In this document: piece after piece, positions 1,290-61,337 of the stretch
Numbering within the stretch: position 1 is the first letter of the stretch
How the letters are laid out: each line of letters starts with the position of its first letter
Source of the DNA: Deltaproteobacteria bacterium
GTDB lineage: Bacteria; Desulfobacterota; Desulfobulbia; Desulfobulbales; Desulfurivibrionaceae
Reading direction: 5' to 3'
Assembly: GCA_013349295.1 (NCBI GenBank)
Contig: DUZW01000009.1
Span: 20,924 to 84,923 of the forward strand
Length of the DNA stretch: 64,000 bases
The notes under the pieces: model-generated
The model's input: only the letters and a program-made list of their open reading frames with translations
Database searches by the model: none
Told to the model about the DNA's origin: nothing
Position numbers and translations under genes: made by a program

Positions 1290-1408
1290 AAGGAACCGTT
1301 ACGAAATAACCTCAGCTTTCTTGATCATTTCGTTACGATTCGTTATGCCGTTTTGGCTGTCCACATGACGAAATTCATTACTCCAGCAAGGGTTGCGGAC
1401 AAGGCTTA
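1290..1408 (-). mobile_element. MITE-like palindromic repeat, divergent copy A (between GNAT gene and secA)
   Basis: Reverse strand TAAGCCTTGTCC...AAAACGGCATAACGAATCGTAACGAAATGATC...GGTTATTTCGTAACGGTTCCTTA matches the family consensus TAAGCCGTyGTTCaaaa...AACGGCATAAGGmGCCGTAACGaAAT...ATTwyCGTAACGGCTCCTA. Confidence 0.65.
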
Positions 1409-4824: not shown

Positions 4825-6006
4825 TTAGTCGCTGTCAACATGAACCTGCCGGTTGCAAGAGCCGAAAAGGCAGAGAATCTCATAGTTGATGGTATCGGAC
4901 CAGCGGGCGATCTCCTCGGCCCTGATCTCCCCGGCACCTTGATGCCCGAGCAGCACAGCTTCATCTCCGACCTTGACCTCGGGAATATCCGTCACATCAG
5001 CCATGCAGGCATTCATGCAGATCATACCACGAACCGGCGCCCGCTGTCCTGCCAGTAATACCTCGGCCTTGCCCGCCATTCTCCGCAGATAGCCGTTATC
5101 GTAACCCACCGGCAGCACCGCAAGCCTGGTAGGCCGATCGGTCACATATCTGTGCCCATAGCTGATCCCCTGCCCTGCCGGAAACTCCTTGACCTGCAAC
5201 ACCGTGGTCGCAAAACGCATGACCGGCCGCAGGTCCAAGGCATAAGCCTTGTGCAGCCAGTCCGCCGGATAACAGCCATAAAGAGAAATACCCGGGCGCA
5301 CCAGATCACAGCGCATTTCGGGATAACGCAACAGGGTTGCCGAATTGGCAATATGCTTGATCGGCGCCTCGCCGGTGGCTTGCACACGACTCAAAAGTTC
5401 CTGAAACAAAGCAAACTGTTCTTCCGTGATGGCGTCGCCTTCCGTATCCGCCTTGGGAAAATGGCTTGCGATCCCGGAGAGATAGAGACTGGGAAACCGG
5501 CGCAAGGCAGCGAGGAACGGCTCAAGCTCGTGGGGAAGAATACCAAAACGCCCCATGCCGACATCGACCTTTATCTGCACCCCTTTCCGGCAACCACCCT
5601 TTGTCGCCTGCGCGGCAAGAGCCTCCATTGCCTCCAGGGTATAGACCACGGGGGTGAGGTCATGGGCCACCGCATCCGCCGCCCCCTGCCGGTCGACCCC
5701 GAGCATGACCACAATCTGTCCGGTTATCCCGGCCTGACGCAACCGCACCCCCTCTTCGACCTCGGCCACGCCGAAGGATGTGGCCCCGGCCTCGGTAAGT
5801 GCCTGGGCCGACGGGATAAGTCCATGCCCATAGGCATCGGCCTTGACCACTGCCAGAATGTCCACCGCCGGGCCGACCAGTTTTCGCACCTGCCGGAAAT
5901 TATGGCGCAGGGCGGCACGATCAACCTCCACTCTATTCCAGGAAGGTGTTCCCATACCAAAGCAACCCGTTGTTACAGCGAAGAGGCTTTGTTGAAATCG
6001 CAACAA
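4825..6006 (-). CDS. alr: Alanine racemase
   Basis: VVKADAYGHGLIPSAQALTEAGATSFGVAEVEEGVRLRQAGI...ISYGHRYVTDRPTRLAVLPVGYDNGYLRRMAGKAEVLLAGQRAPVRGMICMNACMADVT. Confidence 0.96.
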   Translation of the reverse strand: MLRFQQSLFAVTTGCFGMGTPSWNRVEVDRAALRHNFRQVRKLVGPAVDILAVVKADAYGHGLIPSAQALTEAGATSFGVAEVEEGVRLRQAGITGQIVVMLGVDRQGAADAVAHDLTPVVYTLEAMEALAAQATKGGCRKGVQIKVDVGMGRFGILPHELEPFLAALRRFPSLYLSGIASHFPKADTEGDAITEEQFALFQELLSRVQATGEAPIKHIANSATLLRYPEMRCDLVRPGISLYGCYPADWLHKAYALDLRPVMRFATTVLQVKEFPAGQGISYGHRYVTDRPTRLAVLPVGYDNGYLRRMAGKAEVLLAGQRAPVRGMICMNACMADVTDIPEVKVGDEAVLLGHQGAGEIRAEEIARWSDTINYEILCLFGSCNRQVHVDSD

Positions 6007-6068
6007 TCCGCGATTTCAACAGCTATTCCTTTGTCATTCTTTGATGTTGCGTGCCAGAGCCATGACCC

Positions 6069-6622: not shown

Positions 6623-6728
6623 CAAGCCGTCAGTACAAAATAGCCTTACCATTGCACTGGCAAGGAACGGCATAAGAAGCCGGGACGGAATGTCTGAAAA
6701 AGCAAAGATTATTCCGCAACGGCTCCTA
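6623..6728 (+). mobile_element. MITE-like palindromic repeat, copy B (downstream of ferredoxin)
   Basis: CAAGCCGTCAGTACAAAATAGCC...GGAACGGCATAAGAAGCCGGGACGGAAT...ATTCCGCAACGGCTCCTA; inverted-repeat 3' half. Confidence 0.7.
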
Positions 6729-6737
6729 AATTTTACA

Positions 6738-6957: not shown

Positions 6958-7060
6958 TAAGCCGTCGTTCAAAAATTAACGATACCATTGAAATTCCAAG
7001 AACGGCATAAGGCGCCGTAACGAAATAGTCACGGTAATAATTATTTCGTAACGACGCCTA
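6958..7060 (+). mobile_element. MITE-like palindromic repeat, copy C (upstream of ferredoxin)
   Basis: TAAGCCGTCGTTCAAAAATTAACGATACCATTGAAATTCCAAGAACGGCATAAGGCGCCGTAACGAAATAGTCACGGTAATAATTATTTCGTAACGACGCCTA; 101 bp TA-to-TA. Confidence 0.8.
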
Positions 7061-7320
7061 AACAAGATCGAACTGCCACAGATCGGGGCAGAATATCGAG
7101 CCCATTGCTTCCGGAAAAAGATATAAAATTTCCCTTTCCCTCTAATGCACCAACATTTTTTTGTCAATAAAAAAGAATCCCCGGCGCAATGAGGGGCGCA
7201 CAAGGGGAAAAGACGATTCAGGTTGACCAGTTTGCTCTGATCTTTTAGGATACCAGCCGTTGTTTTTTTTGCAGGCATGCACCTGTGTTCTTCTTAATCT
7301 GTCCGGAAAAGGCCCATGTT

Positions 7321-9758: not shown

Positions 9759-10035
9759 AGTTATCTTCTCCCGTGAATCACCATTCACGGTCATCCCGCG
9801 CACAGAAAACCACCTACCATACCCGGTGTCAAGCGGTTGCGAGAGCAGCACTGCGGCGAAAGCCGACATCGGCAAAGATTTTGACGAAGTTTTCGCCATA
9901 TGGTACTTTGCCCCACTTGCACACCGGCGCCGCCATGCTTATATATATTCCACTTTGAGACTTTGGCCGGTGCTTTTCGCACCAGGACTTTTTCTAAAAC
10001 ACTATCTGCTTGTTCTCGAGATTAAGAAACGGATT

Positions 10036-10136
10036 TAGGAGCGGTTACCGAATAATCATTTTTTACCCATTCCGTTACAGCTCCTTATGCCGTTTTTGCT
10101 ATTTAAATGGCCTGCTTATTTTGTTACAACGGCTTA
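10036..10136 (-). mobile_element. MITE-like palindromic repeat, copy D (upstream of TPR gene)
   Basis: Reverse strand TAAGCCGTTGTAACAAAATAAGCAGGCC...AAAACGGCATAAGGAGCTGTAACGGAATGGG...ATTATTCGGTAACCGCTCCTA. Confidence 0.8.
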
Positions 10137-16089: not shown

Positions 16090-16548
16090 TGTCGATTCCT
16101 CCCTTACTAAGGTAAATTAAATAGGTTTCTAATAAATAAACCGTTCGCCCAGCATCGTTATTTCCAACTCGCAGCACTGAGGGGGCTTTCGAGGCAAGGC
16201 GATTGTAACTACATGTAAAATGTGAACAGTGATTCAGTCAGAGGACCATAGCCAGTGCCGCACTCTTTGTCAATAAAAAATGATATGTTTCCAGCCGGTG
16301 TTTTCATCTCCGCGCCCATTTCTTGTTTTCCTTAACCCACTGGCCTTACCGGTCTAATTTAGCGAGACATTACAAGGACCGCAACATCCTTTTTTGTGCC
16401 TGTTTTCTCCCGGTCGGACATTCCCACGAAGGTGTTTATCTCCTCTTTTTTTTCCTGTACATTGTAGGCACTATTCAGGAGCCGTTCTTGTCATTCAAAC
16501 GACGCCAAATGTATTTTTTTCAACGGCTAACTCGCGAGGAAGCTCCCA

Positions 16549-59544: not shown

Positions 59545-59623
59545 TGAGCCGTCACGATGCGGCGCTGCCTCCATTACTGTTAACGGCGACGATCAAGAAA
59601 GCACTCATTCGTAACGGCGCCTA
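59545..59623 (+). mobile_element. Degenerate/truncated MITE-like repeat, copy E (between cheY and cheX)
   Basis: TGAGCCGTCACG...GATCAAGAAAGCACTCATTCGTAACGGCGCCTA; shares GATCAAGAAAGC and the 3' edge with copy A. Confidence 0.5.
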
Positions 59624-60058
59624 AAAATCACTCTCTTCACCAGTCTCTTCGCCCGGATTCTCTTCCAGTCTGTGTTCATAAGCCTTTTCCAGCACATCGT
59701 AGAGAATAGCCTTGATGGTCTCAGGCTGAAACGGCTTTTTCACATAGCCCGCAACCCCGTGCTTTTGCGCCTCTTCCTTACGGGCATCGCTGGCCTCGGT
59801 GGTGATGAAGATCAGGGGAATTTTTCGAAGATCCTCGTCTTCACTGATTTTTTTCAAGAGCTCCATTCCACCCATTTCCGGCATGTTGATGTCTGACAGA
59901 ATGACATCAATCCAGGTTTCCGCCAAAATAGCCAGAGCCTCTTTGCCATTGGCCGCCTCATGAAACTCCCCGACAGGCACCCCGGACATGCTCACGGTTT
60001 TCTTGATCACGGCCCGCATGGTTTCAGAGTCATCTGCCACCAAAATATTGAAAGCCAT
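59621..60058 (-). CDS. cheY: CheY-like response regulator
   Basis: MAFNILVADDSETMRAVIKKTVSMSGVPVGEFHEAANGKEALAILAETWIDVILSDINMPEMGGMELLKKI...TTEASDARKEEAQKHGVAGYVKKPF. Confidence 0.93.
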   Translation of the reverse strand: MAFNILVADDSETMRAVIKKTVSMSGVPVGEFHEAANGKEALAILAETWIDVILSDINMPEMGGMELLKKISEDEDLRKIPLIFITTEASDARKEEAQKHGVAGYVKKPFQPETIKAILYDVLEKAYEHRLEENPGEETGEESDF

Positions 60059-60187: not shown

Positions 60188-60494
60188 CAAGCCGTTGTTC
60201 AAAAAACAATGCCCCATTGGAATATGGGAATCGACATAAGGAGCCGTAACGCAATAGCTAAAAAAGTACAGGTTATCTCTTAACGGCTCCTAAGCCTTTA
60301 CCAAAAAAATTAAGCAATTGTGATCCCAGAAACGGCATAAGGAGCCGTAACGCAATAGCTGAAAAAGTACAGGTTATCTCTTAACGGCTCCTAAGCCTTT
60401 ACCAAAAAAAATAAGCAATTGTGATCCCAGAAACGGCATAAGGAGCCGTAACGCAATAGCTGAAAAAGTACAGGTTATCTCTTAACGGCTCCTA
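60188..60494 (+). mobile_element. Three tandem MITE-like palindromic repeats, copies F1-F3 (period 101 bp)
   Basis: cATAAGGAGCCGTAACGCAATAGCT(g/a)AAAAAGTACAGGTTATCTCTTAACGGCTCCTAA repeated with starts at 60235, 60336 and 60437. Confidence 0.92.
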
Positions 60495-61337
60495 AATATT
60501 AAAAAGCTCCTGCGCCCGATCGATCTCCGTGAGAAGATTGGCCATACACAGCTCAAGGTGCATGGAGGTAATGCCAAACCTCTTCAAGCCCCCCCCCTGC
60601 ATTTTCACCGATAACCCATCAGCTCCGACGCCGATCCCCATGCTGATAACCAAGGCATTGGCCAAGGCCACGATCGCGGTAAGGGAATCCTTTTCCAGGG
60701 CATCAGGATCATGATGCTGCAAAACAGCCAGCTCAATCTCCTTGGGAAAGTCCCACTGGCTCATGATCATGCCCCCCAGCTCGGCATGGGTTGCTCCCAA
60801 CAGCTCCTTCTCCGCCTCGACAAAGGAACAGCTGTCCTGAACCACCTTCATCATGATATTTTTAAAATCATCGGCGACAAAACTACTCAAAAACCGTTTA
60901 CCGATATCATGCAAAAGCCCTGCGGTATAAGCGCTTCCTGGGTCCACATCCTTGACGTACTTGACCAATTCCTTGGCCATTATGCCAACGGCAATGGAAT
61001 GCTTCCACAGTTCCCCCTGGTCCAGCTTGTAGCCTTCTCCGGCGGCGCCTTTATAAAAACGGGCGCTGCTGCTGGTAACAATGATGTCCTTGAGTATGTC
61101 GTTGCCAACAATAACCAGGGCCTCATCAAGGGAAGCAACCTTGCGGGGCAGACCGAAGTACGCGGCATTGCAAATCTTTAATACATTGGCCGTAATCACC
61201 TGATCGTATTGAATAACCTCGGCCAAAGCGGCGGCACTCACCTCCGGGTCGTTCAACATCTCCGAAACCCGCTGAGCCACCTTGGGAAAAGGCGGGACAT
61301 GCTTCACCAGGGAAAGAATCTCATCCAGACGGCTCAT
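60492..61337 (-). CDS. HDOD domain protein
   Basis: LPPFPKVAQRVSEMLNDPEVSAAALAEVIQYDQVITANVLKICNAAYFGLPRKVASLDEALVIVGNDILKDIIV...GLLHDIGKRFLSSF. Confidence 0.93.
   Translation of the reverse strand: MSRLDEILSLVKHVPPFPKVAQRVSEMLNDPEVSAAALAEVIQYDQVITANVLKICNAAYFGLPRKVASLDEALVIVGNDILKDIIVTSSSARFYKGAAGEGYKLDQGELWKHSIAVGIMAKELVKYVKDVDPGSAYTAGLLHDIGKRFLSSFVADDFKNIMMKVVQDSCSFVEAEKELLGATHAELGGMIMSQWDFPKEIELAVLQHHDPDALEKDSLTAIVALANALVISMGIGVGADGLSVKMQGGGLKRFGITSMHLELCMANLLTEIDRAQELFNI

Follow-up and report, generated by a model that had tools for sequence, protein, structure and literature searches.

A recently active family of gene-less palindromic elements that insert behind TAA without target duplication

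In this work we have examined a dispersed palindromic repeat in a stretch of 64,000 nucleotides (the window) from a deltaproteobacterium of the family Desulfurivibrionaceae, whose assembly comprises 2.9 Mb in 66 contigs. A profile made from 77 diverse copies, several window copies among them (an earlier alignment consisted of 7 window copies), found seven complete or almost complete copies in the window with E between 1e-17 and 1e-22, while the best match of the same profile to the reversed window had only E=0.7. Copy A (1290-1395, minus strand) is degraded in its left part and has the right end ..AACGGTTCCTTAA, profile positions 14-105 matching at 1381-1290 (E=2.5e-17). Copy B (6626-6729, plus strand; profile match 6624-6729) is 104 bp long, stands behind the target trinucleotide CAA at 6623-6625 and ends in CTCCTAA. 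Copy C (6961-7061, plus strand; profile match 6958-7061, E=2.8e-21) is 101 bp long, has its target TAA at 6958-6960 and ends in CGCCTAA, and copy D (10035-10133, minus strand; profile match 10035-10136) is 99 bp long with its target TAA at 10134-10136. The remaining three form a plus-strand tandem array: unit F1 (60191-60293; profile match 60189-60293) follows a CAA at 60188-60190, unit F2 (60294-60394; profile match 60293-60394) is joined to F1 at CTAA|GCC, and unit F3 (60395-60495; profile match 60393-60495) ends in a CTA which is at the same time the TAG stop of a minus-strand HDOD/HD-domain gene (60492-61337). The window also holds two decayed copies. Copy E (59545-59624, plus strand) follows a target-like TGA; its profile match is weak (E=0.04, right end only), yet both ends are present, the left as GCCG and the right as CGTAACGGCGCCTAA. 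The other, at 16475-16530 on the minus strand (E=0.003, left half), has its left hairpin fused to the right end (TTA|GCCGTTG...AACGGCTCCTGA). It was absent from an earlier sequence-only reading of this DNA, all of whose listed copies were recovered by the profile search and by inspection of the sequence. The fused copy looks like a deletion between two AACGGC repeats, and comparable internal deletions are seen at the site of the F array in genomes G003, G005, G010 and G013. A known RNA family was considered and rejected, as no curated Rfam family matched in the window. Separately, positions 5988-6053 are a section of another dispersed repeat (hairpin AAATCGC..GCGATTT), which has matches of 81-91% at numerous sites in almost every genome of the genus.

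The repeat is widespread outside the window. The host genome has 51 matches to the core at three or fewer mismatches, against one for the reversed pattern, and 34 copies were counted in the 2.4 Mb scanned of a sister genome (G008), against none in the reversed sequence. All 16 other genomes of the genus, each a sister species, carry the core. Elements are about 101-103 bp long, and beyond the genus they occur patchily and across phyla: the core was found in 8 of 398 genomes of an even phylum-wide sample, and an exact-pattern scan of GTDB genomes gave at least 116 stretches, with Desulfobulbaceae, Desulfocapsaceae, Desulfurivibrio, Geobacter, Holophagaceae, an Acidobacteria MAG and a Methylomirabilota MAG as carriers among the matches listed. 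The last of these (G038) holds at least 40 copies that are 97-100% identical over all 106 bases searched, with 40 of the 87 candidates scored. The host copies are older than this burst, with a median similarity ratio of 0.66. Mis-binning is a conceivable but not an obvious explanation for the copies in G038, because their flanks have 65% GC, which is the GC content in the MAG's own name. The repeats are a real and recently active family of gene-less mobile DNA in sediment and groundwater bacteria. The sequence-only reading had proposed a non-autonomous mobile family that encodes no protein, and this is supported: copies occur throughout the host genome, sister species have empty sites, and one MAG shows a recent burst. 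Some further variants were observed. A mini version of about 54 bp with the outer arms only (TAAGCCGTTGCAAAAAAATGACATGGCCATGTTATTTCGTAACGGCTCCTAA) lies at L062:1357-1410, and at L073:4254-4455 and L094:4623-4848 another small repeat (GAGAGGCTCTTGCAAAATGA.. / ..TTTTGCAAGAGCCTC) sits inside the element's loop. The core motif also occurs on two IMG/VR viral contigs (L205:597-615 and L206:7123-7141), possible vehicles between phyla. Plasmid and phage collections gave no match to the repeat and, with those two contigs as the sole viral occurrences, carriage by plasmids or phages was discarded as an explanation.

Where exactly does the element begin and end? Over 113 copies conservation starts at (C)TAA|GCCG and stops at CTCCTAA, with sharp edges. 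The sequence-only reading had placed both boundaries at TA dinucleotides, as expected of a TA target duplication. That frame is wrong, because the base following the right TA is A in 97% of the 113 copies and conservation stops only there; the unit is GCC...CTAA. Sister genomes contain the empty sites which that reading had proposed to look for, and the gap in them is zero. At least a dozen sister genomes read ..TTGATAA|ACAAGATC.. at the site of copy C, where the host, to which this insertion is specific, carries 101 extra bases, GCCG..CGCCTAA. The site of copy B is CTGCAA|ATTCTACATT in sisters and CTGCAA[GCCG..CTCCTAA]ATTTTACATT when filled, and that of copy D is ATCGTAG|ATCC in G008. F1, by comparison, is an old insertion common to sister genomes. 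At least five insertions went into targets other than TAA, namely CAA (copy B, L110 and L102), TGA (L162) and TCA (L102), and all of them keep the CTAA end. Since the right TAA is constant even there, it must have come with the element, and what is targeted is the left triplet; and since CAA, TGA and TCA targets are filled by elements ending in TAA, the target is not duplicated. Among 190 copies, a triplet other than TAA stands on the left only in 63 and on the right only in 7, and in 22 near-identical G038 copies the left triplet is TAA in 18, TGA in two and TAG in two, while the right one is TAA in all 22. The unit GCCG...CTCCTAA inserts 3' of a (T/C)AA-like trinucleotide, TAA being preferred, without duplicating it, and brings its own CTAA end.

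On these sequence comparisons a target duplication, be it of TA or of TAA, is rejected, and this weighs on two explanations. The first, offered by the sequence-only reading, is a miniature inverted-repeat element (MITE) mobilized by an IS630/Tc1-mariner transposase with duplication of TA. TA does stand near both ends, and IS630-type DDE_3 genes (PF13358) are present in some carriers, 6 of 8 outside the genus and 4 of 17 inside it. However, the A behind the right TA and the empty CAA, TGA and TCA sites, filled by elements that still end in TAA, contradict such a duplication, and there is no PF13358 in the host, in 13 of the 17 genomes of the genus or in the MAG with the burst (G038), although MAGs may be incomplete. 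Allowing for this incompleteness, we consider an IS630/mariner origin refuted by the boundary, empty-site and DDE_3 data, and give it next to no chance. The second is a MITE moved by a DDE transposase with a 3-bp duplication of TAA. TAA flanks most copies on both sides, empty sites whose target is TAA are compatible with either model, and the outer arms are imperfect inverted repeats. Against this, the CAA, TGA and TCA targets are not repeated at the right, the left triplet is variable and the right one fixed even among near-identical copies, and the ends are asymmetric (GCC on one side and, reversed, GGAGCC on the other), so that a 3-bp duplication appears improbable.

The insertion rule also has a bearing on the tandem arrays. 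The commonest tetranucleotide to the left of the element is CTAA (62 of 190 copies). The element's terminal CTAA is therefore itself a favoured target, which leads to head-to-tail stacking. Of the 17 genus genomes, 13 contain joints of the form CTAA|GCC, at periods of about 88 to 107 bp, and no head-to-head neighbours, that is of opposite orientation, were found within 60 bp. The array F1-F3 sits on an old insertion of which remnants are found in many sisters, and G008 has a two-unit array at the same place (G008:C1:310321-310526). In both the window array (60188-60495) and that of G008, neighbouring units agree at about 98% in their right halves, whereas units 1 and 2 agree at no more than 58-63% in their left halves. 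It looks as if the right hairpin had been homogenized locally.

The element folds into two adjacent hairpins, P1 (GCCGTT/AACGGC) and P2 (GGAGCCGT-A-ACGAAAT/ATTTCGT-A-ACGGCTCC), spaced by a nearly constant ATAA, which precedes P2 in 168 of 190 copies. The idea that the left target changes along with the first base of P2 was set aside, as the cases were too few. Complementarity between the left and the right arm, P3, links both loops (e.g. AATAACTTG/CAAGTTATT). Because the RNAalifold consensus blended two alternative foldings, pairs were counted on these named structures. Standard pairs of P1 and P2 make up 91.8% of cells, with changes on both sides at 13 pairs vs 5.6 in shuffles, and in the structure containing P3 102 cells are changed on both sides vs 65 in shuffles, figures in which cells are not independent events and template switching within the palindrome could mimic compensatory change. 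The consensus of the burst has a DNA fold z-score of -8.2, copy C one of -3.7 and F1 one of -3.0, while copy D reaches only -1.9. Could the repeat then be a structural element, such as an RNA, a terminator or a nucleoid element, which is inherited vertically and does not move? The covarying stems, the intergenic position of the copies and the sites common to sister species would suit this idea, but the exact empty sites, the patchy occurrence across phyla and the burst of at least 40 near-identical copies in a single genome refute it, and we attach practically no weight to it.

What enzyme could move such an element? Y1 systems are described as having subterminal hairpins, a short target of fixed sequence on the 5' side of the left end, a tetranucleotide equivalent to it that closes the right end, and a guide at the foot of a hairpin (PMC6006769, PMC8266576); ISDra2, for instance, inserts 3' of TTGAT (PMC2806898). 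The present element resembles the IS200/IS605 type in that it enters 3' of a short, fixed motif which is not duplicated and that its folded end hairpins are under structural constraint. We infer with moderate confidence that this non-autonomous mobile family is moved in trans by a single-strand Y1 HUH transposase, either of the IS200/IS605 type or of the REP-associated (RAYT) one. A Y1 protein encoded elsewhere would bind the folded strand and cut it at both ends, on the left 3' of the (C)TAA in the target and on the right 3' of the terminal CTAA, before joining the excised strand to the 3' side of another TAA. A guide that pairs with CTAA could be provided by TAAG, which stands at the 5' foot of P2. 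A Y1-like manner of working is what we favour; membership of the IS200/IS605 or REP groups is not claimed, because a cognate enzyme and a parent element were sought and not found. No autonomous relative with a Y1 tnpA and the same ends was seen in the loci and genomes scanned, nor any autonomous version with an internal gene in a search that covered 2.4 Mb of G008 and roughly 1 Mb at other loci. A pair of solo ends 1.9 kb apart in L062 was rejected as an autonomous copy, as it encloses ordinary genes and a complete copy. Y1 genes (PF01797) are present in 15 of 17 genus genomes and in 7 of 8 other carriers, and within the genus copy number rises with the number of Y1 genes (rho 0.63, p 0.007). 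This correlation is a weak one, since two carrier genomes of the genus have no Y1 gene and Y1 genes are common in non-carriers of the order too, which also makes order-wide co-occurrence uninformative as evidence. RAYT genes normally lie among their REPs; the repeat was found beside none of 53 Y1 genes within about 1.5 kb. In G008 12 copies have the same orientation as the G-rich strand and 22 the opposite one, a difference which is not significant and whose direction is unexpected for a lagging-strand bias.

It is conceivable, though we think it rather unlikely, that another duplication-free enzyme is at work: a Y2 or rolling-circle transposase, a bridge-RNA-guided recombinase of the IS110 type or an RNA-mediated route. 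Precise insertion into a short core common to the sites, stacking head to tail and a 3' end consisting of a hairpin and CTAA would fit these as well, as would the conserved pseudoknot-like loop pairing and the recent copies exactly behind stop codons. Set against this, no linked gene of such kinds was noticed.

The family can be compared with several known systems. Non-autonomous elements derived from IS200/IS605, with parents such as IS608 and ISDra2, likewise insert 3' of a fixed short motif without duplication and have their right end in an equivalent motif and subterminal hairpins (PMC6006769, PMC2806898). In our case, by contrast, no parent IS with matching ends was found, the 101 bp are taken up entirely by the two hairpins, which lie directly against the cleavage sites and have complementary loops, and the target is TAA, often a stop codon. 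The hairpins of IS608 lie less close to the cleavage sites than those described here. REP, BIME and REPIN sequences, the substrates of TnpA-REP (RAYT), are likewise short, intergenic, of high copy number, built of two hairpins and found in tandem arrays; a tetranucleotide precedes their hairpin, usually GTAG where our element has TAAG (PMC8266576, PMC3116915). The two tetranucleotides have the same last two bases, which in GTAG select CT (PMC8266576). REPs are species-specific in sequence (PMC6006769), whereas the present core is identical across genera and phyla. The present elements also differ from REPs in being clean insertion units with a fixed CTAA end and in that none of the 53 Y1 loci offers a RAYT gene flanked by the repeat. 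Palindromes of the ERIC or Correia type are gene-less, intergenic and about 100-130 bp long, and a TA target duplication is usually ascribed to them; our family shares the former properties and lacks the duplication. Its insertion rule likewise separates it from IS630-type MITEs. The Chunjie MITE of Geobacter uraniireducens, also small, non-autonomous and from a related bacterial group, is described as 235 bp long with direct repeats and terminal inverted repeats (PMC10969869), and by this description differs from our element. No description of the repeat was found in the open-access literature searched.

We now turn to the sites that the element occupies. In G038 all 22 near-identical copies examined stand behind a stop triplet, and for 17 of them this triplet closes an ORF that has the orientation of the element and at least 60 codons. 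Twelve of these 17 ORFs have Pfam matches (e.g. transketolase, SAICAR synthetase, DAHP synthase, KduI and amidohydrolase), all four TGA and TAG cases included. With gene calls weighted by third-position GC, 11 of 17 G038 copies lie at a stop vs 15% of other TAAs outside genes (p 6e-6); with plain longest-ORF calls there are 5 of 17 and the excess is not significant (p 0.13). Copies outside G038 show a slight excess at stops (15 of 126 vs 8%). In 16 of these 126, the terminal CTA is the stop of a converging gene, as at window positions 60492-60494. Does the element home to stop codons? Selection against disruptive insertions, together with a TAA target, may be enough to explain the excess, and true targeting seems to us a doubtful proposition. 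If it were targeting and not selection, this would be a mobile element which fits genes with a double hairpin as a new 3' end, perhaps a terminator or an mRNA stabilizer, and which has spread between phyla.

What we have, then, is a mobile element without a gene, well delimited and recently active, which distant phyla share in almost the same form. Its rule of insertion, 3' of TAA, without duplication and with its own CTAA, makes the transposase identifiable by a single-strand cleavage test. As its favoured target is often a stop codon, the element can give genes hairpin 3' ends without breaking them, and this is a testable route for mobile DNA to reshape transcript ends.
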